Part shown: piece after piece, positions 17,490 to 61,384 of the stretch
Layout: every line of letters starts with the position of its first letter
Position numbering within the stretch: position 1 is the first letter of the stretch
Assembly (NCBI GenBank): GCA_029204225.1
Contig: CM055095.1
Coordinates: forward strand, 21,805,252 to 21,869,251
Reading direction: 5' to 3'
DNA length: 64,000 bases
Source of the DNA: Diphasiastrum complanatum
Taxonomy: Eukaryota > Streptophyta > Lycopodiopsida > Lycopodiales > Lycopodiaceae
Made by a program: the position numbers and the translations under genes
The notes under the pieces: generated by a model
Told to the model about the DNA's origin: nothing
Seen by the model: only the letters and a program-made list of their open reading frames with translations
Database searches by the model: none

Positions 17490-18060
17490 TTGGTGATATA
17501 CAACTGGAAAGCATGGATATGCTCAGGAGTATGGACAGTAGTGCATGACACACCTTACTCTGTAAGAGTCACCTGAGTTAGCATGGATTTGCTCTAACAC
17601 CAGCACATGTGTCCCCACCAGGTCTTTTGACCAAGTAAAACGTTAACGGTTAAAACTTTTCATACTCTTCTTTGTTTAAAACGAACTGACAACACACGTG
17701 TCCACACCAGGTCTTTTGGCTAAGTAAAACTTTAACGGTTAAAACTTTTCATACTCTTCTTTGTTTAAAACTAACTGACCAATTGCCCATAAGCTGATCA
17801 ACATGGCACTCGTCCTGATACGATGATATGACGGCTTGGCCTATCAATAAAACAACGTTCTATTCAAAGTTGTTAAGTAGTACTTCTTTTGGACATAAAT
17901 AACAACTGACGCTCAGCTATGACAGCTATCTTCCTCACTAAACTAACTCGTGCGGTTTTGTTTTGTGGGATGGTGGCAGGTATCAACTGGGCATCTTGAA
18001 AGTGGTTTTGCTTTATGGTGCTTTATAATCTTTGATTTTTATATGTGAAGCGGGCTCATT
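17490..18060 (+). repeat. Unclassified dispersed repeat, copy related to 47.3-48.0 kb
   Basis: Shares GGATGGTGGCAGGTA-CAACTGG, GTTTTGCTTTATGGTG and other runs with 47290-47990 in the same orientation. Contains its own 89-bp tandem duplication (17603-17691 and 17692-17780). Probably LTR or untranslated part of an LTR element; class unknown. Confidence 0.5.
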
Positions 18061-19972: not shown

Positions 19973-20313
19973 TTAGATTTTTTCAGAGAATTTTCGAGAG
20001 AGCATTTTTGGCAAAAATTTTAAGAGGGAGAATTTTTAGCCGATTTTTTAGAGAGAGAGAGAAAAAAAAATTCGTGAATTTTGGAACTCGAATTTTGGAA
20101 CGAACTCGACTTTTCACTGAACTCGAATTTTGGCGGCTCGAATACTTCTAGACTCGAACTATTCAAGTTACTCGAATTTTCAATCGACTCCAATTTCTGG
20201 AATTTTTGGAAGAACGAGAATTTTTTTAGATTCGAATATTTGGACCTTTGTTGTCTTCAAAGCTCCTTCATCGCACGCACTGTCTGTCGATGTTTAAAAT
20301 AACAAAACAAATT

Positions 20314-20421
<108 letters not shown>

Positions 20422-21241
20422 CTTCAGAAGAAATTCGCAAAAAATTCTCTTTCTCTCTCTTTCTATGATGCGAAGTTTTCGAGTCTTGAAATTTTCGAAA
20501 GAGAATTTTTCGCCGATTTTCGAGAGAGAATTTTTCGTGAAATTCGAATGATAGGGATTTCGCTAATGTTTCAAGAGAGACACAATTTTTCGAGAAAAAT
20601 TTTTGCAGACACAAATTTTTCGGAAGGACTCGAATTTTGAGGCTCGAATTTTTCTAGACTCGAATTTTTTGAGCACGACTCGAATTTTAGAGGCTCGAAT
20701 TCTTCTAGACTCGAATTATTCAATGAACTCGAATTTTCGTAAGAGTTCGAATTTTTTTAGTCGACTCAAATTTTTCTAGGCTTGATTTTTTCTAGACTTG
20801 AATTTTTGGGAGGCACTCGAAATATTTTAGACTCGAATTTTTTTAGGCTCGATTTTTTGGACGAACTCGATTTTTTGGAAGAACTCGAAATATTCTAGAC
20901 TCGAATTGTTGGACAAACTCGAATTTTTCTAGACTCGAATTTTTTGGGCAAACTCAAATTTTTGAATTTTTCTAGACTCTAATTTTTGGACGAACTTGAA
21001 TTTATTGAGGCTCAATTTTTTGAACAAACTCGATTTTTTGGATGAACTCAAATTTTTGGACGAACTCGATTTTTAGATCGAACTTGAATTATTTCAAACG
21101 ACATACTGAATTTTTCCGAATGACATACTAATTTTTTTTGGAACTACTCGAATGTTTCTAGACAACGTACTGAATTTCCAAATCATTGGCCGTCACCTAG
21201 ATCGGCCACTATTGCCCGTCAACAACGGACACTCACAACTA

Positions 21242-21244
<3 letters not shown>

Positions 21245-21275
<31 letters not shown>
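21245..21275. repeat. (TG)n microsatellite
   Basis: About 31 bp of TG, followed by a short TATATA-rich run. Confidence 0.95.
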
Positions 21276-21277
<2 letters not shown>

Positions 21278-21799
21278 TTATATATTTACATATATAAGAA
21301 ACCTATGAGGGGTATATGTCACAAACACACATGAGCATGAAAGAGAGGATTCATCAGGCTACATGTTTTTATTAAAATGGAATGATGACTTTAGATCTTT
21401 GTGCAAGATTATATGATGCTTAATTTTGTGATTTAAACATTTGCTCTATGTTTACAACTTACAAGCACACTTGATGCATTTCAATTTTGTAATTTTAAAC
21501 ATGTGCTAGTCTATGTTTACAACTTACAAACACACTTGATGCATTTAATTTATTTGATACATGTGTGTTTTATTTTAGTAGCATTCATTGAAGACTCATG
21601 TTTCTTAAATGTGGTAACGGTTGAAAGATAACTCTTAAATTTCGTTAGATGTATGTTCCCTTATGAGTAGACATTATTTTCATGCTATAAGTACACCAAT
21701 TTTGTTAAAGGTGTAGACAATTTTCTGAAATGGTTATGATTCCAAAAGCATATGTGTCATGGTGTTAAGTTCGCTTTGTGGAAAAGGTTTGTTACAATT

Positions 21800-22510
21800 G
21801 TGTTCCTACTGTGTGGTGAGAAAGCCTCCACAAATGTGGTTCTACTTTTATTGTTTGCCATGTGAGACCAAGGTCAAGGCTATGATAACACAATGAGGAC
21901 CCACTTTGACTTCTATAGAAACTTTGGTACAATAACCTAACAATCACTAAGATGCAATTAGACCTTCCACACAACATGTGCTTGCTAGCTAATAGAACAT
22001 GCATCTAAAATTATTTTCAATTTATTTGTTTCGTAAAAAAAATTAGCTATTGTGTTTTTATTATTTGGTAGGAGAGTCTCCACAAATGTGGTTTGTACTC
22101 TTATTGTTTATCATATGAGACTAAAGTCAAGGGCATCATCATACAATGAGGACCCACTTTGACTTTATGGCAACTTCTAGCACAATGATTCAAATATTGT
22201 TAAAATGCTAATATACAATACACACAATTTGTGCTTGTTAGCTAATAGATTGTCTAGAAAAAAAAATTCCATTTATATAATTCGTGAAGAAAATGGGTTA
22301 TTGTGTTTCTACTATTTTTTAGAAAAGTCTCCATACGTGTGGTTTTATTTTTATTGTTTGCCATGTGAGACCAAGGTTAAGGTTTTTATAGTAAAGTGAG
22401 AGAACCCACTTTGAATTTATGACCACTTTGCACATGAAAATTGAACAGTTGCTAGTATACTAATCTATCTAACACAATATGCTTTAAAATCTTGCTCATT
22501 TTCTAATATG
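21800..22510 (+). repeat. Tandem repeat, three ~251-bp units
   Basis: Units start at 21800, 22052 and 22303. Each carries TCTCCACAAATGTGGTT-like, TTATTGTTTGCCATGTGAGACCA-like and ACCCACTTTGA blocks, then a GCTAGCTAATAGA-like block and an A-rich end. The units differ at many positions, so the array is old. No coding frame is shared between the units. Satellite-like by structure. Confidence 0.85.
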
Positions 22511-23156
<646 letters not shown>

Positions 23157-24440
23157 GTGTACCATACTCGAATCTTGTAAGAGTACGTGACTTAACTCAT
23201 AACAACCGGACTTAGGATGCCGAGAAAAAAATTCTTACAATAGCTTAAGCCTATGTTAACCAATACGCATGCATGACCAACCCTTATCATATTTAATACC
23301 CGAAACCCATTGCAAGCAAGATTTATAGTATTATTACAAATGCATGGGTAATAATGAGTTTTGCCCACCGTATCGGTGATATTCCATACTGCATCATACA
23401 TGAATAAGAGTTGAAGTAATCTCTTGGGAACTATCCATCTTCAACTGCTTAAATGAATCACCTACGTGCTAAAAGCATTCAAACCGAAGGTATAGGGTTA
23501 CCCATAATGTACTTTTTAAAGCCTCATAAGGTCATCATCAAGAATTACTTGTTTTTCTGAAGATTAGTTATGTAGCTTTTGGGTTGTGTGCATTCCCCAC
23601 CATATACAGACTATCAACGATCATAACCATTTATCTCAAGTGCATACAATCATACGAAGCATACTTTGTACTGCTAACTTCCCCATACTCACAGCTATTA
23701 TCATATTAGTTATCACAATTGGATAACTTCATAGTTTCTATCAGATCAAGAGAGCATTAGCAGGAACAATATTACGTGAAAGGTTATAGCCAACCGAGTT
23801 TTATAAGAGCATTCTAAACAACCATGTTTATGCTATAGCTTATGATATCTCCATGAAACACTTGAAAGGACATCGATCAAATCACATTCTCAATAGCATG
23901 AGACACCGCTCATACCACGAGCTATATCAAATCGCATTCTCAAATGCATGAGACACTGCTCATACCATGAGCTATAGCAAGTCGCACCAAATGCAATCAT
24001 TTCTGAGTAAAATATTAGCGCTGGCCAGCGGCCTAATCCACCACAGGGAGGGCACTGGCCAGCGGCCATCCATTCCTTATAAAGTATGATAATGATAATG
24101 AACAATAAGCTTGTTGTCTAGCGCCTATCACAAGCCAAAAGGGCTGATAGAATACCTGAAAATCTGCCCACTTTTGCTCCTTGGAATAGCGTTTGATCGT
24201 GGGAGTATCCAATGATAGTATACAGGCCGATTGTTTGCTACTACACAAAGAAATTCACAAAAAAACTGCAAGCATTCATCGTAAAGTTTTGCTTATATCT
24301 TAAATCATCAGCGAGCTATCATTACTCAAATCTATCTCACCTTTGTTTGCAGTATTACTCCACCAATGCCTTTCCAATAGCAATGACGAGCATTCTCTTC
24401 AATCACAATCACAACATGGTAGAGTACCAGGAGAGCAAGA

Positions 24441-24558
<118 letters not shown>

Positions 24559-24856
24559 ATAAGGAGAAGTGAATAGGGTTATGTGATTTCCCTTGTTATA
24601 AAACCAGAGGACACTTAGGTGTACTAAGTGCAGATTGTTGTCCATCGTTAGATTAATTGTCCATAATGTGCACAGATTCTGGCCATTGAAAGATTCACAA
24701 TTTTCCCACCATATTTAAACTTTTTCTAATATGTGGGATCTTCTATCATAGTAAGGCATTTTTTTGCCCCCACTAGTAAATAAGGTTAGTACACGACATT
24801 TAATTCCACAGAGGCTTGCGAAGCGAATAAAGTGATATACGTATGCAACAGAGTCC

Positions 24857-24858
<2 letters not shown>

Positions 24859-24897
<39 letters not shown>
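24859..24897. repeat. (GA)~19 microsatellite at the end of the left direct repeat
   Basis: About 39 bp; the counterpart in the right copy is 120 bp long (30683-30802). Confidence 0.97.
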
Positions 24898-24900
<3 letters not shown>

Positions 24901-24963
24901 ACCAATTGTACCCACAACTAGCAAAGTCTCTCAGGAGGCAGTTAGCACCCTTGAGATGGAGTG

Positions 24964-26902
24964 CTAACTGCTTACCAAAAGAAATTTAGCATTTTTTGGT
25001 AAAGTGAACTTGAGTCCAGCAAACAAATTGTGTAGGAATAGATTGTTTATAATCTCATACAATCTTCCTCTCATGAAGCCATTACATTGAAAAAAAAGAA
25101 CGATGTTTCTGACCTCCATCCATAAAAGTATCTTGTTCGGTACAACAGTACATGGTAGCAATAATTTGAGCGACAATAACTTTATACGAGTTCATAATCG
25201 GCCTATTGGCAATCAAGTGTGTATATTGGAAAAACGAAAACGGAAGTTCCCTTTGCTTATCAATTTTTTTTCATATGAAACATACCTGACAAAGAATCAA
25301 AGGTAGTGGTAATATTTAAAAAATTAACCACATTATCCGAAGCGTCGTCATTTTCTATGGTGAGGTACTCCAAGGGATAGACCCATAAGACATTATCATC
25401 GACACCGGGTTGCTCCTTGTCCAGAAATAAAAGAGCATCTGAGTTATTTATGAAACAAATATCATCAATATAATGGAAAGTATACTTGAAGGCACGTAGG
25501 TATTCCACCTTTCCAAGTCTGGCGAGTCTTTTCATAAAATGCAATTCATAGAATGACAGATACCAATTACACCATGTAGGGGAACAAGCAAAACCCATAG
25601 GAATACCACAGACCTATTTCCAAGTCCTGTCTTTTAATCTAACAATGCAATTGTCATTCGGTATATCATTATATTGGCAAAGAGGTTCCATGTCAATCAC
25701 AATCCAATTATCGGTTTGATTGTTTACCCATTTTTAATCAAATTGCTTAAGGCTCGGTTTCCATTGATAGGCAATCTTTTTGTTTTTACAAGACTTGAAT
25801 GCATACCCGATCATTTTTTGTATTATTATTTTTAGCCCATCAGGACCATTAAGAGGAATATTCTCATAGCATTTTGTGATGTCAGTAGACGACATCAAAG
25901 TGATTTTGTTTGGCACATTAAGATTAAATTCAGTGGATGAATCGCACTGCCAGAATAGGTTGGTATCCACATTTATGATACTTTGGTATGAGGTTGCCTT
26001 AAGGCCTGCCCTCTCCATAAGGAGAGGAGTCAGTATACCAAGAGCTCCAGAAATGAACATGGCCACCTTAGAAAACTAGTAGTCATGTGCATTTGTAATC
26101 CATCTAAACGCATTTTTATGTGCTTTGAAAGTATAGAGTAAGAAAGGTAATTCTTCTTTCCCTATTAGAAAATCAGGTATTTTAGTAGCAAACGTATCTC
26201 GGATCTTAACCATAGCCATGTCTAGTGTATTATTATTTTCTTTTGGAAATGGGACAAAATCTGGACTAGACAGTCTAACCAAAGCCAAATTCCTTACAAA
26301 GTAGATGCATATAAAACATGGGTTATGCTAAGCCTTATCCACACCATTCACATACAGATTGATAATAATCCAATTACGCTCATCAATGGCATTTTTTAAT
26401 TGTTATTAGTTATACTTTTTCCATGTAGCCACTTGGTATTTTTCAAAAAGTTTGTTACATCATCTTTGCAAATCAAGGCATGTTCCATAACAGTCTCATG
26501 ATCAATATTTTGATAAGTAGGTAAGAAACTTGCCAATTCAAACCATCCACGATAAAGTTCAAAAGCTACCTCATTTATATTAGACTTATGCAACGGGATG
26601 TGGTAAAGTCCTTTGTTCAGGTCATTCTTTAAAACTTTGCCTCTAATAATTCCAGTATCCATCGAAACAACATGCCCAAAAATTTCGGAAATGAACTCTT
26701 TAAAACTTGTATTGTCAACACAAGTACAAGGTGGAATGTTGTCAACACCAAAATCACAAAAGACTTGAAAGGATTTATACCATTCATGCTTCAAATGTGG
26801 AAAAAGACCAACCAAACACAATAAGCTCAAAAGACTCATCAATATGACCAAAAATCTGATGTAAGACTTTAGCATATAGTCATTTAACATCAATCCTCTC
26901 AA
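24964..26902 (-). pseudogene. Penelope-like element reverse transcriptase, decayed
   Basis: Read on the minus strand from right to left. The N-terminal extension has CTC...FKEFISEIFGHV and IIRGKVLKNDLNKGLYH (26.4-26.7 kb), as upstream of the RT core in Penelope-like elements. Then follow PFLLYTFKAHKNAFRWITNA (about 26.1 kb), SSTDITKCYENIPL (about 25.88 kb), GFACSPTWCNWYLSFYELHF (about 25.6 kb), the catalytic FHYIDDICFINN (about 25.46 kb), VNFLNITTTFDS, then in another frame LPFSFFQYTHLIANRP and FFQCNGFMRGRLYEIINNLF (about 25.05 kb). YIDD, the HKN/R motif and the C-terminal block are those of this RT class, a sister of telomerase RT. Several frame breaks (near 25.2, 25.7, 26.1 and 26.35 kb) inactivate it. 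No GIY-YIG nuclease follows the RT: the direct repeat starts within about 70 bp. Family assignment is from recalled motifs. Confidence 0.7.
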
Positions 26903-27028
26903 AGCATCTGTTATAATAACGTAAATGCAAAAAATACTTCCCTATGTCTCTTCTAACCACTAGTCGTCGTCTACCAGTATTACTAACCTCCAACATCCTT
27001 GTTTCTTCTATGTCCTCCTGCACATGGA

Positions 27029-28411
27029 TCAATCACGGTAAAAGTTCAGCTTTCTGATAGGAAGATCCCCCTTACCGCCACTATTTTGCCCTTCTTTGCC
27101 TTTGTTCATAAAGTTCTTTCTCTTCCTGTTATTGCTACTGCCTGATATGATTGAGCTTGGATTGTTCAGATTGAAGGAACCCATTTTTTTGCTAGTATTC
27201 TGGAAGTATTTGTCTTGCAAGGTAGAGAAGTTGGGTTTTTCAAAAGGTGTTCAATTTCTCGAATGTTTTTAGCATCGCCAAGGTGTGCAAGGAGCTTAGC
27301 AATAGGGTTTATGGAAAGTTCAATGGCAGCATCAATCATGTATTGTCGGATATACAAACAAGGTGAGACTTGACAACCTTTCTAACAGGTTTATGCAACC
27401 AAAGAAAGAAGGCATTAAGCTGATTTTTCAAAGTTGCACCAGGAAAGAAAATGGAAAGATTATTATTTATGTACCAAGTAGAGTGATCAAACCATATGAC
27501 AGAAGAATTGTTTTTGCATTTATCACCGCATCTGCACTTAAAGAAAGGTCTTTTCCAGTTCCAGATTCTAGCGTGATGAAGATTCATTATGTTAAAGCCA
27601 GTGTCAAAATGGCCTCTAGTTCTAGCCCAGGTCTGCTCAAAAGGACATCTTGAAGGTTCAAATCTGCTCATCTTGATGATAGTATCAAAGGCAATAGGAG
27701 TATCAAAAGAAGAATTCTTATGCAAAGCAGCAAGCGTGCATGCTTGGACTTCTACATCAGTGAGATGAGCAAGAGCGATCCAGAGCTCAATACAGATAGG
27801 TGCTAGGAAGTTGACAGAGGGAAGACTCCAAAGTTTATAAGCAGTTTTTGCAGATTTAAACACAATGATACGACTTGGTACCAATGGTACTTGGCAACTT
27901 TTGGCCTGACAAAATTCAAAGGCAGATTGATTTCCCACATCACAGATTTCTTGTGAGAAGGACTCTAACTGAGAAGCACTGTCTTCATCAAGGTCTTCGG
28001 TAAAAATCAAAGGGTGAGGTGAAGTAGGAGTAGTAGCAAGGACAGGGGTATCAGTAGAGGAGTCACCATTTTCTTTTTTTAAGTAAGCAAATACTTTTCA
28101 AATATGCGTATTACAAAACGTTTCTTCAGTAGCAATTCGTTCAGCATAGTTTGAGAGGTCCATATAATTTTTTTAACCATGCTAAGGGTTTCCTTCTTTT
28201 TAATAAAATCCGTATAAATTTTGATCCAATCCATGATGCACATCAAATCAACAAGGCAAAGAATTTTATCATCCGGGCCAGTAGCATTACAAGTAGTCAT
28301 ATCATAAGCAGTATTCAATTTGTGAACTTCAACAGCTTTCTTCATGCAACATATAATATTCTGAACAAAAGGACTAGGAGGAGGAAGGGGCTCCCCATAG
28401 CCAAGTGTCAC
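27029..28411 (-). pseudogene. Probable N-terminal coding part of the Penelope-like relic
   Basis: Consecutive minus-strand frames (28411-28079, 28010-27336, 27357-27166, 27220-27029) lie directly upstream of the RT in the same sense. They include a Cys-rich segment KCRCGDKCKNN (about 27.5 kb) and a basic, Asn/Ser/Gly-rich linker NNRKRKNFMNKGKEGQN. Codon use and spacing suggest one long decayed frame continuing into the RT. I recognise no domain: in particular no GIY-YIG motif is evident, although some green-lineage Penelope-like elements carry the nuclease on this side. The assignment is from position, not similarity. Confidence 0.4.
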
Positions 28412-29132
28412 TGCATCCTGAAACCATCCTGTGGACTACACCATACAATAGACCTTGTTAGCCATAAAATACAAGTAAAGGTAAAGGTTTGGTACTACCC
28501 CAACCAAAGGGTAGTCGGGGTGGCATCAGAGATACTAGAGAGAGAGTAACAAGATTTCACATAGTCTCTCTTGACAAGTCAAGACCAAATACTTTGAACC
28601 CTTCAATTTATAGCATAACAGGAGTACATAAAGCGAAGCAAGTTTTAAGATGCACAACTGTTAACTGCCAACGTCCCACACAACAAAACTGCACAAGTTA
28701 TTCGCGTGAGAAAGACAGGTGTCATAGTTGAGCATCAGTTGTTATTCATGTCCGAAACAAGATTCACTACTTTATCAACTAGATTGCATTAACAACAAGT
28801 ACGTCCAATCTTCTCAATCGTTTCACTTTCTAAATAAGCAACACGTTCCGCCCTTTAACAAAGCCGTATCTAGACAGAAGCCATATTGATCAATAAAAGA
28901 GCAAAATGGAACATATTAGGTTCACAAGTACACTTACATGTAAGCAGCTATCTTTCATTACACTGATGGACAACGACTTGACATTGGTCACAGTGATAGG
29001 TACTAGAGCACCTCCATCCTATACTAGCCTCAAATCGGGGAAAATGAAGAACTGTCTTTGCCCCATGGATTCCCCGTACTACTTTTTATGGGAATCCAAG
29101 CACCGAACAACTTGGGCAATTCCATGCCATTC
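28412..29132. other. 5' flank of the Penelope-like relic
   Basis: Non-coding. The segment 28558-28600 (TCTCTTGACAAGTCAAGACC and surroundings) recurs in reverse complement at about 48028-48050, so an end of a repeated element is present here. Confidence 0.4.
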
Positions 29133-30311
29133 GTGTACCATAGTCGAATCATGTAAGAGTACGTGACTTAACTTATAACAACCAAACTTAGGATGCCGAG
29201 AAAAAATTCTTACAATAGCTTAAGCCTGGGTAATAATGAGTTTAGGCTGCCCACCGTATCGGTGATATTCCATACTGCATCACACCTGAATAAGAGTTGA
29301 AGTAATCTCTTGCGAACTATCCATCTTCAACTGCTTAAACGAATCACCTACGTGCTAAAAGCATTCAAACCGAAGGTATAGTGTTACCCATAACGTACTT
29401 TTTAAAGCCTCATAAGGTCATCATCAATAAGTACTTGCTTTTCTGAAGATTAGTGACATAGCTTTTGGATTGTGTGCATTCCCCACCATATACAGACTAT
29501 CAACGATCATAACCATTTATCTCAAGTGCATACAATCATACAAAGCATACTTTGTACTGCTAGTTTCCCCATACTCACAGCTATTGTCATATTAGTTATC
29601 ACAGGTGGATAACCTCATAGTTTCTATCAGATCAAGAGAGCATTAGCAGAAGCAATATTACGTGAAAGATTATAGCCAACCCAATTTTATAAGAGCATTC
29701 TAAACAACCATGTTTATGCTATAGCTTATGATATCTCCATGAAACACTTGAAAGGACATCGATCAAATCACATTCTTAATAGCATGAGACACCGCTCATA
29801 CCATGAGCTGTATCAAATCGCATTCTCAAATGCATGAGACACCACTCATACCATGAGCTATAGCAAGTCGCACCAAATGCAACTATTTTTGAGTAAAATA
29901 TCAATGCTGGCTAGCGGCCAAATCCGCCACAGGAAGGGCGCATCCATTCCTTATAAAGTATGATAATGATAATGAACAATAAGCTTGTTGTCCAGCGACT
30001 ATCACAACCAAAAGGGTTGATAGAATACCTGAAATTTGCCCACTTTTGCTCCTTGGAACAGCGTTTGATCATGGGAGTATCCAATGACAGTATACAAGCC
30101 GAATGTTTGCTACTACACAAAGAAATTCAAAAAAAATTGCAAGCATTCATCATAAAGTTTTGCTTATATCTTACATCATCAGCGAGCTATCATTACTCAA
30201 ATCTATCTCACCTTTGTTTGTAGTATTACTCCACCAATGCCTTTCCAATAGCAATGACGAGCATTCTCTTCAATCACAATCACAGCATGGTAGAGCACCA
30301 GGAGAGCAAGA

Positions 30312-30413
<102 letters not shown>

Positions 30414-30679
30414 ATAAGGAGAAGTGAATAGGACCAGAGGACACTTAGGTGTACTAAGTGCAGATTGTTGTCCATCGTTAGATTAACTATGTGCACAGAT
30501 TTTGGCCATTAAAATATTCACAACTTTCCCACCTTTTTTAAACTTTTTCTATTATGTGGTGTCTTCTATCATAGTAAGGCATTTTTTTGCCCCCACTAGT
30601 AAATAAGGTTAGTACACGACATTCATGTTCCACAAAGGCTTGCAAAGCGAATAAAGCATTATATGTATGCAATAGAGTC

Positions 30680-33393
<2,714 letters not shown>

Positions 33394-33867
33394 TGTTATG
33401 TCCATGGCCAGTAAGTAGGATTCAGTATATTCCTAGTCTTGGATACACGGTACTCCAATAAATCAAGTTGTTAGTTATGCCACGCCATACTGGATGTGAC
33501 CTGAAAGTAACTAATATCCTTGTGAGGCCCAGAACACACTAAATGGAGTTTAGACAAGGTTTGGGACAGTCAAGACATGTGTAGAGTTATCAATAATATG
33601 CAATTCTATGAATAGTTGGTCCATGCTTAGGACTCTATTCTAGGTGAATCTATGTATAGGGAACTTAGGGCTATGCATGACTATGTGCCCAGGTTGCTTT
33701 TGGCTCTATATATTGAAGCCAAACTCGTCCTACTCCTCATTGTGGTCATTGATTCATTGCCAGGGTTTCACTCTATCTTCATGCTTCCTATTCCTCATTG
33801 TGGTCATTGATTCATTGCTAGGGTTTCACTCTACCTTCATGCTTCCTATTCCTTGGCTTGGGGGTGA
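33394..33867 (+). mobile_element. LTR of the TGTTATG family, copy 2, truncated by an inversion
   Basis: Starts TGTTATGTCCATGG after a polypurine tract and aligns with 3564 onward (GGATTC, GGTACTCCA, GCCACG blocks). Near its end it carries AAACTCGTCCTACTC and GGCTTGGGGGTGA as in copy 1, with a 58-bp tandem duplication between (33735-33792 and 33793-33850). After GGCTTGGGGGTGA (33855-33867) the sequence switches to the reverse complement of the element's gag start. Confidence 0.7.
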
Positions 33868-34640
<773 letters not shown>

Positions 34641-47289: not shown

Positions 47290-48065
47290 TTTGTGCAAGA
47301 GACCATCACATTCGTAGGGATTGGAACGACATGGATTTGCCCTAGTTCTATTGTGAATGTAGGATAAAACGCTTGGCCAAGTATAAACGCACACAGGTGT
47401 GGTTTTGATTCTAAATTAAAACACGATTAGAATTTAAAACGTATAAAACAAAGAGATAGTTGTCGTGCTCTTGGGAAGCATAAATATGCTCAAGGGTTAC
47501 GAAAACGGTAGATCACCTGCGCTCTATACGATAGGTACAAGTATCGGTATGGCATGGATTTGCCCCTATACTTGCGTACTAATCCATGCTATCCCTTGTT
47601 TATGAGATGCAATCTCTTTAGCACAGCTAGTTTTCAGTACATAATGAATAAACTCACACAAAGATATGGACCAATACCAAGAGACTGATTAGAATGGCGG
47701 AATGCCTTGATACGGTGAGGATAAGGTTTGGCCTATCGCTATAAGTCACATTACGTAGGAAAGACTGGACTATATAATTTCATTAATACTGCAAATTGTC
47801 AAGTTGGTAAACTTATTTTGTACATGGATAACAATTGACATATAACAACTAACATTCAGCGTTGACACCTATCTTTCTCATTGTCCTAACTTGCTCGGTT
47901 TTGTGTGGTTGGATGGTGGCAGGTACCAACTGGATGTCTTGAAATAAGTTTTGCTTTATGGTGTGAGTATTGTATACTTTTTTAGCTATGTTTTTCCTTG
48001 TTGGTTTATGAATAAAGGGTTTTAAAAGGTTTGGTCTTGACTTGTCAAGAGGAGCTATGTTCTGT

Positions 48066-48068
<3 letters not shown>
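47290..48068 (+). repeat. Unclassified dispersed repeat, copy related to 17.5-18.0 kb
   Basis: Shares GGATGGTGGCAGGTA, GTTTTGCTTTATGGTG and CATGGATTTGCCC runs with the 17.5-kb copy. Its right end contains TTGGTCTTGACTTGTCAAGA, matching 28566-28590 in reverse complement, just before a CT tract. Confidence 0.5.

Positions 48069-48148
<80 letters not shown>
48069..48148. repeat. (CT)40 microsatellite
   Basis: About 80 bp of CT at the right edge of the repeat copy. Confidence 0.97.
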
Positions 48149-56777: not shown

Positions 56778-57234
56778 AGGTTGTCTAGCCTGTGAGTCTG
56801 AGAGTGAGAGAAACTTCAGTGCTTAGATTCTTGAGAAGATTCTTATCTTCTACAAGCACCTCAATCTTGAAAGAGGGAGCATTTGATCTATAGGTGTCAG
56901 ATCAGGTGGAGTCTTGCACTGTTGGTGAGCTATTGGCAAGGGGAGTGGGATGATCCAAAAACTTTCTAAATCTGGCTAAGTTTTGGAGAGTTTTTCTGGA
57001 GGAGCTTACACAAAAGTAGGGCGCACTTTCTATAGGGGCTTCTGGTTTCTGTTCCAGTGGAGCCTAGTGCTTGTGCTAGTGAGGCCACACCAAGTGGCAA
57101 AGACAAAAGCAGGAGCTGAAGGGTTGCCTTGAAGTGGCTACATACCCTAGTTTGGGGTTAAACCCTTGTTGCTGGAAGCTGTTCTTTTCTGATCTCTTTC
57201 AAGTTGAGCTTCTGTTTTAAGCACCGATTTTAGC

Positions 57235-57741
57235 ATGGCAAGTCTTGGGGAGAGTTTGCTGGGTGAATCTAGCAAACTAGATGGCACAAACTACAGAGTG
57301 TGGAAGTTCAAGATAGCCAATATCTTGATGGATAAGAATTGCTGGGAGGTCATGACAGGTACAGAACCTGTACCAACATCTGATCCTGAATTGAAGGACT
57401 ACATGAACAGGAGACATAAAGCTCATAGGATAATCAATCTTTCTGTCAAGGACAATATTATTCCTCACATTTGCAATGCAAGGGATGCAGCTGATGCTTG
57501 GACAATTCTGAAGTCTATGTTTGAAACAGTGGATTCAGCCAAGCTGGTGTATTTGCAAAACAGGTTACATACTCTCAAGATGGAAGCAGGTGCAACAATT
57601 GGTGATCATATTACAAAGGTCAAGGACCTATTGGATCAGCTTGCTTCAGTTGGAGAGAAAGTAAGTGACAGGAGTATTGTTCCCATAGTCTTGAACAGCT
57701 TGTCATTCAACTATCAAGACTGTGATGTCCCTTTCTGCTAG
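57235..57741 (+). CDS. gag: Copia gag (capsid), N-terminal part, ending at the frame break
   Basis: 168 codons starting MASLGESLLGESSKLDGTNY, 457 bp after the primer site. It shows the copia capsid (UBN2/retrotrans_gag) pattern: LDGTNYRVWKFKIANILMD, W-rich helix, AADAWTILKSMFE, LVYLQNRLHTLKMEAGATI and IVPIVLNSLSFNYQ. The last residues (DCDVPFC) are not family-like and the stop follows at 57739. The natural continuation, TVMSLSAREKLPTF, is in the +1 frame from about 57716, so gag was originally fused to pol. Capsid forms virus-like particles that carry element RNA. Confidence 0.9.
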   Translation: MASLGESLLGESSKLDGTNYRVWKFKIANILMDKNCWEVMTGTEPVPTSDPELKDYMNRRHKAHRIINLSVKDNIIPHICNARDAADAWTILKSMFETVDSAKLVYLQNRLHTLKMEAGATIGDHITKVKDLLDQLASVGEKVSDRSIVPIVLNSLSFNYQDCDVPFC

Positions 57742-60700
57742 GGAGAAACTCCCAACCTTTGGGGAGTTATGTGGTCTTCTTTTACAGGAGGAGATGAGAA
57801 GGAAGAATCTTTCTGAAAGGGAAGATAATCCAGAGCTTGCATTTGCTTCTAAGAAGAAGCAAAACTTTCAGAAGAAAGGCAAAGGCAAAAAGAAGAACTC
57901 AAAGCAAAGCTTGGAGCAGCAGGTGTCCAAGTTACAGGTTGGAGAGGAGTCAAGCACCAATTCCTCATCTACACCCAAGAGGAAGGGCAACTGCAACTAT
58001 TGTGGTAAGTATGGGCATTTTGCTTTTGAATGCAGGAAGAAGCAAAGTGATCAGAAGAAGGGAAAGAACCAGCAGAGTCACTTTGTTGACAAAGTTGCAG
58101 AGGAGGAGCAATCTGGTGTGCTTGAGCTATTCACCGCAGCCCTATCATCTGAATCCACATTTGGTGGATGGTACATTGATTCTGGAGCCTCAAAGCACAT
58201 GACACCTCATAGAGATTGGTTCAGCACCTATGAGGAGACAGAAGATAGCCAGCATGTTTGCCTTGGAGATAATTCTACACGTATGGTGAGGGGCAAAGGT
58301 ACAGTTGCAATACAGCTATCATCAGGTGAGGTGAAGGAAATTAAAAGTGTGTTGCATGTACCAGGGTTGGCTAAGAACTTGTTATCTGTTGGTGCCATTA
58401 CCAAACAGAACATGGTGGTAGAGTTTAATGATTCTAAATGTTTGGTAAAAGACAAAGAGAAGAACTTCAAAGTGGTAGCCAAGGGAATGCAAGAAGGAGG
58501 TCTTTACAAGCTTTTCACAACCATTCCTAGCCAAGAGGCCTTGTCTGCAAGAGATACTAATCGGGACAAGCTTTGGCATGAGAGATATGGTCATTTGAGT
58601 TACAAAAGTTTGCAAGTTTTGAACAGGCACAAAATGGTAGTAGATCTTCCTAGCATTAAGTCTTCTTCAGATACATGTGAGGCTTGTGCATTAGGGAAGC
58701 AACAGAGGAAAAAGTTTCCAAAGGAGAAAGTTACCAGGGCCAAGGGCATTCTTGAACTTGTGCATTCAGATTTATGTGGTCCCATGCAGGTCAAATCAGC
58801 AGGGGGGGCATACTATCTCATGACCTTCGTAGATGATTTCTCTCGGAAAGTATGGGTCTATTTTCTGAAACTGAAATCTGAAGCGTTCAAATACTTCAAA
58901 CAGTGGAAAGCTATGGTGGAAAACCACACAGGAAAGAGGTTAAAGACTCTCAAGTCAGATAAGGGTGGTGAGTATATTTCTGATGAGTTCAAAGATCTTT
59001 GCAAAGCATGTGGGATAAAGAGACAGTTTACTGCTCCACATACACCGCAGCAAAACGGCGTGGCTGAGCGGAAAAACAGGTCTATAGTTGAGTGTGCGAG
59101 GAGCATGCTCAAGGCAAAGGGGTTGCCAAATTCTTTTTGGGCAGAAGCGGTAGCAACTGCTGTTTTTCTATTGAATAGATGTCCAACCAAAGCAGTTGAA
59201 GGAATCACGCCAGAAGAGGCATATAGTGGCAAGAAGCCCAAAGTGGGCAGCCTTCGAGTATTTGGGTGTACAGCATATGCACATATACCAAAGGACTTGC
59301 GGAAGAAACTTGATGCAAAATCCGTAAAGTGTGTCTTTCTTGGGTATAGTGAAGGTGAGAAAGCTTATGTGCTATATGATCTCGAAAACAGGAGGAAGAT
59401 CCTAAGTCGAGATGTCATCTTTGATGAAGAGCATGCACCCAAGATACCGGAGCAGGAGAAGGAAGGAATTACTGAGTTCATACCCTTGATTGATTCCACG
59501 GATGAGGATCCTAGTCAAGAGTCCTGTAAGCCTCAAGTGCAGGAGCAACAACAGGAAATCGAACCTACTAGTTCGAGACCTCTTTTTGGCCAAGTACCAG
59601 AAGCAGAAGTTGGGGACAAACGGAAGACTAAAACAGTACCATGGGATACATGGTCACCATCCACATCACCTACTGCTAGGAAGAAGCTACCTAGGTGGTA
59701 TTGGGAAACAATCAAAGAAGGTCAAGTGATTGAAGAAGGAGAGAGCAGTGAACAGGGTGTCAGAAGATCTCTTAGGTCTCATGAGAGACAAGAGACTAAC
59801 TTTGCTCTTATGTCCACTATTCTGAATGCAGATGAGCCACAATTCTTTCACGAAGCCGTGAGAGAAAAGGTATGGCAACATGCCATGCAGGAGGAGTACG
59901 ACTCCATTGTCAAGAATGACACATGGGAGCTCACTACATTGCCAGAAGGGAAGCAACCAATAGGTTGCAAGTGGGTCTATAAGACCAAGTTTCATGCCAA
60001 TGGAACAGTGGACAAGTACAAGGCAAGGTTGGTGGCGAAAGGCTATGCTCAGCAAGAGGGGCTAGACTATGATGAGACATTCGCACCTGTTGCTAAAATG
60101 ACATCTATCAGGACCGTTTTGGCTATAGCCTCATATTTTGATTGGGATGTCCATCAAATGGATGTCAAGAGTGCCTTTCTTAGTGGGCACCTACAGGAGG
60201 AGGTTTACATGGAACAACCGCAGGGATTTGAAATAACAGGCAAGGAGAATCTGGTTTGCAGGCTTAGGAAAGCCTTGTATGGGCTCAAACAGGCGCCAAG
60301 GGCTTGGTATAGCCGAATTGATGAGTACTTTGCAAGGCAAGGGTTTGAGAAGAGTAAGTCTGATTGCAATCTTTATGTCTTCAGGGAAGGAGAAGACTTT
60401 GTGGTTGTTGTGCTCTATGTGGATGATCTACTCATCACGGGAAGCAATAAGAAGCTTATTGCTTGTGTTAAGAAGAATCTTTCTAATGAGTTTGAAATGA
60501 AAGATTTGGGTTTGCTACACTATTGCCTAGGAGTTGAAGTTTGGAAAGGAAAGCGTTGTCTTTTTATCTCACAGGCAAAGTATGCACAGAAATTATTGAA
60601 GAAGTTTAACATGCAAGAAAGCAAACCAATCAGCACACCCATGGATGCAAGCAACAAGCCATCAAAAGATGATGGTCCAGCATTTGCAGATGAGACGCTC

Positions 60701-61384
60701 TATCGTCAGTTAGTGGGCAGCCTGATTTACCTTACTACCACCAGGCCAGATATTGCTTATGCGGTTGGAATCGCAAGTCAATACATGTGTAAGCCTACCA
60801 AAGCACATTGGAAGGCAGCCAAGCGGATCCTACGATATGTGAGAGGGACAGTGACTTATGGGATTGGATACACGGATGACGGGAACCTTCAGCTGGAAGG
60901 CTATTCAGATTCTGATTGGGCAGGTGATAGAGACGATCGGAGATCGACGACAGGCTATTGCTTCAGCCTAGGTTCAGGGGCTATATCGTGGTGCAGTAAG
61001 AAGCAGCCTACTATTGCTCTATCGTCTACCGAAGCTGAGTACAGGGCGACTACGAGGTCCGCCTGTGAAGCCATTTGGTTACGCCGTCTACTTGAGGACA
61101 TGCAGATTGCTCAAGTAAGACCTACATTGTTACATTGTGATAACCAAAGCTGCATTCAGCTTGCAAGGAATCCAGTCTATCATGCACGGACAAAACATAT
61201 AGAGGTGGACCAGCATTTTATACGAGAGAAAGTGCACAGTGGGGAGATCGAGCTAGTTTATTGCGACACCAACGACCAGACAGCTGATATTTTTACTAAA
61301 CCACTTAGTAAAGATAAGTTTGAAAAGTTCAGAACTTTGTTGGGTGTCAGTTTGAATAAAATTGCCATTAAGGGGGGGTGTTGA
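57722..61384 (+). CDS. pol: Copia pol: gag C-terminus, protease, integrase, reverse transcriptase, RNase H
   Basis: 1220 codons without a stop; the last codon lies inside the 3' LTR. Residue landmarks: zinc knuckle C91-C94-H99-C104; protease DSGA at 153-156; integrase zinc site H286-H291-C319-C322 and catalytic D350, D413, E449 (TPQQNGVAERKNR); RT QMDVKSAFLSG (D814) and YVDD 899-902; RNase H SDSDWAG (D1063/D1065), STEAEY (E1104) and HCDNQS (D1140); C-terminal ADIFTKPL at 1188-1195. All key residues are present. The listed Met start is only the first ATG in frame; translation should enter from gag, which needs a frame change near 57715. The product copies element RNA and integrates the cDNA. 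Confidence 0.95.
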   Translation: MMSLSAREKLPTFGELCGLLLQEEMRRKNLSEREDNPELAFASKKKQNFQKKGKGKKKNSKQSLEQQVSKLQVGEESSTNSSSTPKRKGNCNYCGKYGHFAFECRKKQSDQKKGKNQQSHFVDKVAEEEQSGVLELFTAALSSESTFGGWYIDSGASKHMTPHRDWFSTYEETEDSQHVCLGDNSTRMVRGKGTVAIQLSSGEVKEIKSVLHVPGLAKNLLSVGAITKQNMVVEFNDSKCLVKDKEKNFKVVAKGMQEGGLYKLFTTIPSQEALSARDTNRDKLWHERYGHLSYKSLQVLNRHKMVVDLPSIKSSSDTCEACALGKQQRKKFPKEKVTRAKGILELVHSDLCGPMQVKSAGGAYYLMTFVDDFSRKVWVYFLKLKSEAFKYFKQWKAMVENHTGKRLKTLKSDKGGEYISDEFKDLCKACGIKRQFTAPHTPQQNGVAERKNRSIVECARSMLKAKGLPNSFWAEAVATAVFLLNRCPTKAVEGITPEEAYSGKKPKVGSLRVFGCTAYAHIPKDLRKKLDAKSVKCVFLGYSEGEKAYVLYDLENRRKILSRDVIFDEEHAPKIPEQEKEGITEFIPLIDSTDEDPSQESCKPQVQEQQQEIEPTSSRPLFGQVPEAEVGDKRKTKTVPWDTWSPSTSPTARKKLPRWYWETIKEGQVIEEGESSEQGVRRSLRSHERQETNFALMSTILNADEPQFFHEAVREKVWQHAMQEEYDSIVKNDTWELTTLPEGKQPIGCKWVYKTKFHANGTVDKYKARLVAKGYAQQEGLDYDETFAPVAKMTSIRTVLAIASYFDWDVHQMDVKSAFLSGHLQEEVYMEQPQGFEITGKENLVCRLRKALYGLKQAPRAWYSRIDEYFARQGFEKSKSDCNLYVFREGEDFVVVVLYVDDLLITGSNKKLIACVKKNLSNEFEMKDLGLLHYCLGVEVWKGKRCLFISQAKYAQKLLKKFNMQESKPISTPMDASNKPSKDDGPAFADETLYRQLVGSLIYLTTTRPDIAYAVGIASQYMCKPTKAHWKAAKRILRYVRGTVTYGIGYTDDGNLQLEGYSDSDWAGDRDDRRSTTGYCFSLGSGAISWCSKKQPTIALSSTEAEYRATTRSACEAIWLRRLLEDMQIAQVRPTLLHCDNQSCIQLARNPVYHARTKHIEVDQHFIREKVHSGEIELVYCDTNDQTADIFTKPLSKDKFEKFRTLLGVSLNKIAIKGGC
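61370..61378 (+). other. Polypurine tract AAGGGGGGG
   Basis: Directly abuts the 3' LTR; primes plus-strand DNA synthesis in LTR elements. Confidence 0.9.

Follow-up and report, generated by a model that had tools for sequence, protein, structure and literature searches.

A degraded copy of a probable endonuclease-lacking Penelope-like retrotransposon in the lycophyte Diphasiastrum complanatum

Structure and coding capacity of the element

The window analyzed here, a stretch of 64,000 nucleotides from the Diphasiastrum complanatum genome (C4:21805252-21869251; 1,744,706,496 bases on 5,176 contigs), bears a broken coding region on its minus strand between 24.96 and 28.44 kb, which is flanked by long direct repeats. 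Taken together, this locus probably represents a degraded and partly 3'-truncated copy of a high-copy Penelope-like element (PLE), a plant retrotransposon in this case lacking an endonuclease. Within the coding region, the reverse transcriptase (RT) motifs follow each other in order and in one frame interrupted by three in-frame stops. From the N-terminal side (all minus strand), the CxC motif IPPCTC (26720-26737), GHV (26666-26680), FKAHKN (26112-26129), RT motif A STDITKCYENIPL (25851-25889), motif B' GIPMGFACSP (25578-25607, 92 aa downstream of motif A) and motif C YIDD (25461-25472) can be located, all of them where the initial annotation of this DNA had placed them. The longest open reading frame (ORF) of the window copy (253 aa) and the minus-strand sum of ORFs of at least 60 aa (1146 aa) were not reached by any of 1000 simulated sequences (first-order Markov model with matched dinucleotide statistics). 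The plus-strand sum of 694 aa was likewise unreached in 1000 simulations; long ORF totals are common on the strand opposite coding DNA.

The element is a high-copy family of plant retrotransposon. In searches with the RT and ORF1 pieces, all 150 scored genome places matched in each case (3,106 and 4,430 first-look candidates, respectively), the window copy itself being included in both sets. For comparison, 20 copies of about 9.3 kb were fetched, plus six further copies of 4.3 kb picked for long open ORF1 frames, which are mostly divergent, and six upstream flanks of 3 kb. In blastn pieces, coding-region identity to the window copy mostly amounts to 80-91% among the 20 copies, with outliers at 74% (L026) and 69% (second unit in L021). 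A family unit measures about 5.9 kb and comprises the coding blocks ORF1 and ORF2.

In the window copy, ORF1 (27029-28435, minus strand) and ORF2 (24964-27017, minus strand) lie in different reading frames and both are disrupted by frameshifts and stops. Other copies are better preserved. ORF1, about 470 aa in length, is open over 470 aa in L032 and 467 aa in L033, and its C-terminal end (K/R)LNF(Y/F)RD followed by the stop is conserved in L032, L033, L035 and L037. Hence, what had been described as an N-terminal extension of the RT at 27.0-28.4 kb is instead a separate ORF with its own conserved stop (28435-27029), and the cysteine cluster noticed there, although present, belongs to ORF1 and not to an RT extension. 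This cluster, FKCRCGDKC (27516-27542, minus strand), has the form C-x-C-x3-C with a conserved histidine following, the three cysteines and the histidine being invariant in all eight aligned ORF1 sequences, and appears zinc-finger-like by inspection. No Pfam family was matched by the ORF1 sequences (8/8) at E values up to 5. The best PDB match of ORF1, a small GTPase at E 0.15, was judged to be chance, and a match of the cysteine cluster to a near-C-terminal stretch of methyltransferase EHMT2 chains (E 0.33) was rejected as evidence of a known domain.

ORF2 comprises an N-terminal part of about 100 aa, the CxC domain, the RT and a C-terminal region, and ends in the window with ...LLVSS about 65 bp ahead of the CT repeat that opens the downstream flanking repeat. 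In L011, a single frame of 559 aa extends from the N-terminal part via CxC to motif C, which reads YIAD in this copy. CTC is found in L011 too, while the divergent L034 has HPCQC at this position.

Between subfamilies, dN/dS amounts to 0.05-0.16 for ORF1 wherever dS is finite and to 0.125 and 0.13 for ORF2 in two pairs with finite dS, values which are rough as dS exceeds 1 and is near saturation (other pairs are saturated), whereas a wrong-frame control on one ORF1 pair gave 0.96 and 1.17. In view of the low values compared with this control, both blocks were proteins and the subfamilies are old, with ORF1 and ORF2 both under purifying selection. Besides the near-saturation, the within-subfamily dN/dS of 0.22-0.43 speaks against this conclusion, but is as expected of many decaying copies.

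Upstream of ORF1, a leader of about 100 bases (28436-28536, minus strand) extends from the CT junction of the preceding repeat. A 12-copy alignment of the leader shows two hairpins, and in its consensus fold of 13 pairs, five display pair-keeping changes on both sides; no convincing match to an Rfam family was obtained. Directly before ORF1, a CTAAC-like box (CTAAC, TTAAC or CTAGC) is followed by pyrimidines and AG (CTAAC and TAG in the window), a context retained in divergent copies whose ATG is lost. ORF2 opens at the 3'-splice-site-like TGTGCAG/GA (the slash marking the putative splice position), and the AG is conserved in 19 out of 22 rows, one copy accounting for two of the rows. These signals suggest two alternative 3' splice sites, one for ORF1 and one for ORF2.

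Relationship of the reverse transcriptase

The stop-read-through frame 25263-26327 matches Pfam RVT_1 at E 1.8e-5, albeit with 25.0 bits under the curated cut-off of 29.6. The same family is matched by five of six RT family members, the best E value being 3.4e-6. Searching PADLOC resulted in an RT match (E 4.4e-6) and PHROGs in a weak one. The best PDB match of the window RT (E 0.23) was judged chance, the NCBIfam search gave nothing useful, and nothing informative was obtained from scanning viral contigs with three window proteins, three patterns and one profile or a genome-contig collection with the RT.

An ORF2 profile aligned with the telomerase reverse transcriptase (TERT) exon of the host at E 0.0017 (hhalign, 32% over 50 columns). 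When three RTs were tested against this exon, none of the 500 shuffles run per RT attained the local score. In contrast, a host copia RT did not match the profile, and its score was reached by 157, 232 and 432 of 500 shuffles. Two host gypsy pieces were also no better than shuffles (84-257 of 300), the gypsy control piece being the first 300 aa of an ORF where no catalytic motif matched. Element RT and host TERT have the motif B' block GN....Q..GIP.G...SP..C..Y....EL in common. However, the host TERT at C5:19212968 is a single genome place with a Telomerase_RBD domain, the one such match in the genome (1 of 18 scored candidates), and is not repeated as the element is.

A second relationship emerged from an RT fragment in a metagenome-assembled genome (MAG) of a Bathymodiolus symbiont, to which the ORF2 profile aligned at E 7.4e-8. 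This sequence (JACCHT010000015.1, L001 3228-3789, minus strand) holds a decayed animal PLE-like RT and is probably contamination by mussel DNA. As the fragment was first found via the GIPMG motif, the part upstream of GIPMG was tested separately; its score was reached by 0, 6, 6 and 84 of 2000 shuffles (L034, L012, L035 and L011, respectively). The gap between motifs A and B' is 92 aa in all five plant sequences compared (window, L011, L012, L034 and L035) and about 87 aa in the mussel element. Overall, the element RT resembles the host telomerase exon and the animal RT, as opposed to the RTs of host copia and gypsy elements in the comparison, in accordance with the initial proposal of a Penelope-like RT, which gains support from the RVT_1 match and the similarity to the host TERT exon. 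Membership in the PLEs is very likely, and placement within the PLEs rests on features. On the other side of the balance stand the weak shuffle result of L011, the missing match of the mussel motif A segment to the ORF2 profile, a PDB search with the RT profile that gave no match, and the composition of the comparison set, which is confined to the host TERT exon, copia, gypsy and the mussel fragment.

The initial annotation had named a best match to LINE, DIRS or group II intron RTs as evidence against its proposal. Nothing of this kind was seen in the comparison, in which the host TERT exon matched and the host copia and gypsy RTs did not, with LINE, DIRS and group II RTs lying outside it. 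The direct repeats and the degradation, taken alone, would also fit a telomerase pseudogene or a retrotransposon of the long terminal repeat (LTR) or LINE type, accompanied by flanking segmental duplications. This explanation is highly improbable, since the RT is unlike host copia or gypsy (a LINE RT being outside the comparison), the sole Telomerase_RBD match in the genome is a separate gene, and hundreds of places share the repeat end, ORF1 or the RT. An LTR retrotransposon was specifically rejected because neither RT nor termini fit, and a telomerase pseudogene because the Telomerase_RBD match sits elsewhere.

Pseudo-LTRs and termini

The direct repeats at 23157-24897 and 29133-30802 pointed out in the initial annotation are real, with 90.8% identity over 1561 aligned positions and 93.8% over another 96, but the length of about 1.7 kb ascribed to them does not hold for the family, in which the repeat, a pseudo-LTR, measures about 2.27 kb, starts with (CT)n and has its 3' end TTACTCTCTCT at the equivalent of window position 28537. 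In the window, the upstream pseudo-LTR (28537-30802, minus strand) is the 5'-most partial copy. It opens with (CT)60 at 30802-30683 and ends ...GAAATCTTGTTACTCTCTCTCT at 28537, its parts being in the same order as in the family copies L017, L012 and L011. The downstream pseudo-LTR (23157-24897, minus strand) has its (CT)n start at 24897-24859 and is truncated at 23157. In the window and the fetched copies, 2.27-kb pseudo-LTRs flank a coding unit of 3.6 kb in direct, (partial) tandem arrangement. Pseudo-LTR sequence adjoins the coding part in 18 of the 20 fetched copies (exceptions L025 and L026), corroborating that the repeats are part of the element. Intact copies with borders excluding the repeats had been named in the initial annotation as counter-evidence, which these 18 copies do not provide. 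Two-copy sub-repeats of 50 bp are present within the pseudo-LTRs at 23876-23986 and 29762-29872, and self-complementary segments, recognized by eye, may possibly form an RNA structure. Elsewhere in the window, a fragment of the pseudo-LTR tail (17868-18017, 79% over 154 bp) and one of the CT-end region (48030-48077, 85% over 54 bp) can be found.

In the searched loci, among which L030 is the window copy, 20 pseudo-LTR 3' ends were encountered; a new coding unit begins after 13 of them, and seven are terminal. Five of the latter run on into (CT)n (L012, L017, L018, L021 and L025). Genome-wide, 972 sites were obtained for a 27-base 3'-end probe, 538 for the pseudo-LTR end plus a 23-base CT run and 199 for the pseudo-LTR/ORF1 junction, each search allowing up to three mismatches and giving zero hits with reversed controls; as the three patterns differ, these sets are not strict subsets. 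The CT-tract ends listed sit on many contigs and mostly distant from contig ends. Hence, attachment to telomeric repeats, a mark of endonuclease-lacking (EN(-)) PLEs, was not observed and 538 3' ends enter a CT tract instead. The CT run past the 3' end is longer than the CT of the internal pseudo-LTR/ORF1 junction. At the 5' side, unit-unrelated DNA passes directly into (CT)n and pseudo-LTR in the window, L011, L012 and L017. Frequent 5' truncation and variable termini, as typical for PLEs, are seen across the window and the fetched copies. The window is rich in long (GA)n/(CT)n tracts, 14 of at least 39 bp occurring in 64 kb, and five of these lie within the element or directly at it.

Several details weigh against insertion at CT microsatellites. 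Two of the seven terminal 3' ends (L014 and L015) lack a CT run, and the CT-run and ORF1-junction classes leave about 235 of the 972 probe hits unaccounted for. At the 5' end, matching to the unit begins inside the pseudo-LTR and not at (CT)n in L027 and L029, and the 5' side of L015 continues into a further unit. The (CT)n opening the pseudo-LTR recurs at the internal ORF2/pseudo-LTR junction and is therefore inherited, so that a 5' (CT)n alone is no proof of a microsatellite target. The CT tails could also come from RT slippage on the element's own (CU)n end, not from old target sites. Moreover, the truncated 3' end of the window copy is directly followed by (GA)56 in minus-strand reading (about 23043-23156), an orientation opposite to the usual (CT)n tail.

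Nuclease and ribozyme searches

No nuclease could be recognized after the RT, in agreement with the initial proposal, and none was recognized before the RT either. A GIY-YIG domain was found neither in the eight ORF1 sequences at E values up to 5 (Pfam) nor in the window frames by Pfam or by pattern, and six ORF2 pieces gave just sub-cut-off Pfam matches to unrelated families. Accordingly, the C-terminal GIY-YIG of canonical EN(+) PLEs (Penelope/Poseidon and Dryad) was not recognized in the window frames and the six ORF2 pieces, nor was the N-terminal GIY-YIG in the same ORF, a mark of Chlamys/Naiad PLEs, in ORF1, ORF2 and the window frames. As a point against an endonuclease-free element, an unrecognised nuclease inside ORF1 could exist. 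A hammerhead ribozyme was detected neither at window positions 20000-34000 at E up to 5 nor in the whole window at the Rfam gathering score, nor, with E values up to 2 allowed, in six additional loci, which hold little pseudo-LTR.

Stand-alone GIY-YIG ORFs occur in the genome, scoring above the Pfam cut-off at all 150 scored places (471 candidates), and might serve as helpers providing the endonuclease in trans. This is improbable. The two places fetched out of the 150 lack a significant PLE match over 6 kb, one of them lies beside ORFs read as PIF1-type helicase, suggesting Helitrons, and among the matches listed (best 150 each, by eye) no GIY-YIG place has a place matched by RT or ORF1 within about 20 kb. 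These ORFs were rejected as a part of the element, neither of the two examined out of 150 being linked to it. The ORFs of the two examples (L044 2904-3296, plus strand; L045 2802-3407, minus strand) share a similar protein of about 130 aa, and GIY-YIG places cluster at C8:0.6-3.2 Mb among the matches listed. The PIF1-helicase-like ORFs beside the one example suggest that this GIY-YIG is Helitron-borne.

Comparison with known elements and proposed insertion mechanism

PLEs of the Chlamys/Naiad type possess pseudo-LTRs, are not known to carry a hammerhead ribozyme and are associated with microsatellites. Reportedly, they are further marked by a CxC motif between endonuclease and RT and by an insertion-in-fingers domain (IFD) between motifs A and B'. 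With these PLEs, the element shares the CxC motif before RT and GHV (window, L011 and L034), a long A-B' gap that may represent an IFD, the pseudo-LTRs, the microsatellite association and the lack of a hammerhead, but differs in having no recognised GIY-YIG and a coding capacity split over two ORFs. It might be considered an N-terminal-endonuclease PLE of this type, with the nuclease either diverged past recognition or corresponding to the ORF1 protein and directing insertion into microsatellites. The position of the CxC domain just ahead of the RT, the long A-B' gap, the microsatellite preference ascribed to Chlamys/Naiad and an ORF1 with an invariant CxCxxxC...H cluster encoded upstream of the RT would fit such an element. 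However, eight ORF1 sequences (E up to 5) and the window frames searched by pattern gave no GIY-YIG, and ORF1 ends in a conserved stop and occupies a frame of its own, apart from that of ORF2. This explanation is unlikely, though clearly less so than a helper in trans.

The reading as an EN(-) PLE is in line with two ORFs without a recognised endonuclease, the mark of Athena and Coprina. According to PMC6431247, PLEs of 4-6 kb encode RT and GIY-YIG together in a single ORF or else possess two ORFs and no endonuclease, and telomeric PLEs bear complementary telomeric repeats at the 3' end. Athena/Terminons of bdelloid rotifers, Coprina and the EN(-) PLEs of Selaginella and conifers share with the element a telomerase-related RT, two ORFs and no endonuclease, as well as units of 4-6 kb, an arrangement in head-to-tail arrays, 5' ends truncated at stretches of repeats and complementarity of the 3' end to the repeat to which they attach (PMC6431247, with the plant cases in PMC9033089). 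In contrast to these, the element has many copies at internal (CT)n, not at telomeric repeats, and no hammerhead ribozyme was found in it. Consequently, it fails one defining feature each of Athena/Coprina and Chlamys/Naiad. Dryad of conifers is likewise a PLE in a plant, but an EN(+) one of the Penelope/Poseidon group (PMC9033089; see also PMC9370799 and PMC10473749), whereas the element has no nuclease after the RT.

Plant PLEs are reported from conifers and Selaginella in PMC9033089; PMC6696364 mentions very few plant PLEs, from conifers, and PMC10473749 states that Penelope was not found in other gymnosperms or angiosperms. Chlamys PLEs have been reported in a brown alga (PMC12477816). The repeat tables of three flowering plants list under Penelope 0 pieces, 1 piece and, for Boechera falcata, 259 short pieces with 24,530 bp. 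Several flowering-plant genome papers mention Penelope or PLE, but a PLE of the kind found here is not described for flowering plants in the literature searched, subscription papers being mostly outside.

Since copies often end at CT repeats, the element may insert by priming there, as telomerase does on chromosome ends. We infer that it works like a telomere-attaching EN(-) PLE, with the (CT)n microsatellite, at which copies are often located, replacing the telomere. In this scheme, transcription would begin in the upstream pseudo-LTR, and splicing onto the two alternative 3' splice sites would give rise to an ORF1 mRNA and an ORF2 mRNA. The genomic RNA would terminate in UUACUCUCUCU. Its (CU)n tail would probably anneal to the (GA)n strand of a (CT)n.(GA)n microsatellite that a nick or break has laid bare, where the 3' OH might prime reverse transcription, the microsatellite acting in the role of the G-rich overhang used by telomeric EN(-) PLEs. 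As the microsatellite would supply the primer, an element-encoded nuclease would not be needed.

The broadest interpretation, which we regard as tentative and rather doubtful in its entirety, would be a major unreported group of plant retrotransposons that is endonuclease-free, has a (CU)n RNA end primed by microsatellite (GA)n, thereby transferring a telomerase-like insertion mode from chromosome ends to dinucleotide repeats, expresses two proteins via alternative 3' splice sites and possesses an orphan ORF1 replacing the nuclease. If true, such a high-copy plant PLE would mean that a whole retrotransposon order has been overlooked by plant annotation, and an EN(-) PLE at internal microsatellites would link telomere-style priming with ordinary retrotransposition. 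Such an element might also account for the abundance of long (CT)n tracts in the host genome.

Neighboring features

Besides the element, the window encodes a LysM-type receptor kinase ORF at 112-1434 (best PDB match at E 3.7e-48), in which the catalytic lysine and the HRD motif are missing by eye and which we take to be a LYK2-like pseudokinase. At 57208-61384, a copia element is present with a 1229-aa ORF encoding integrase and RT (RVT_2, E 1.2e-81).

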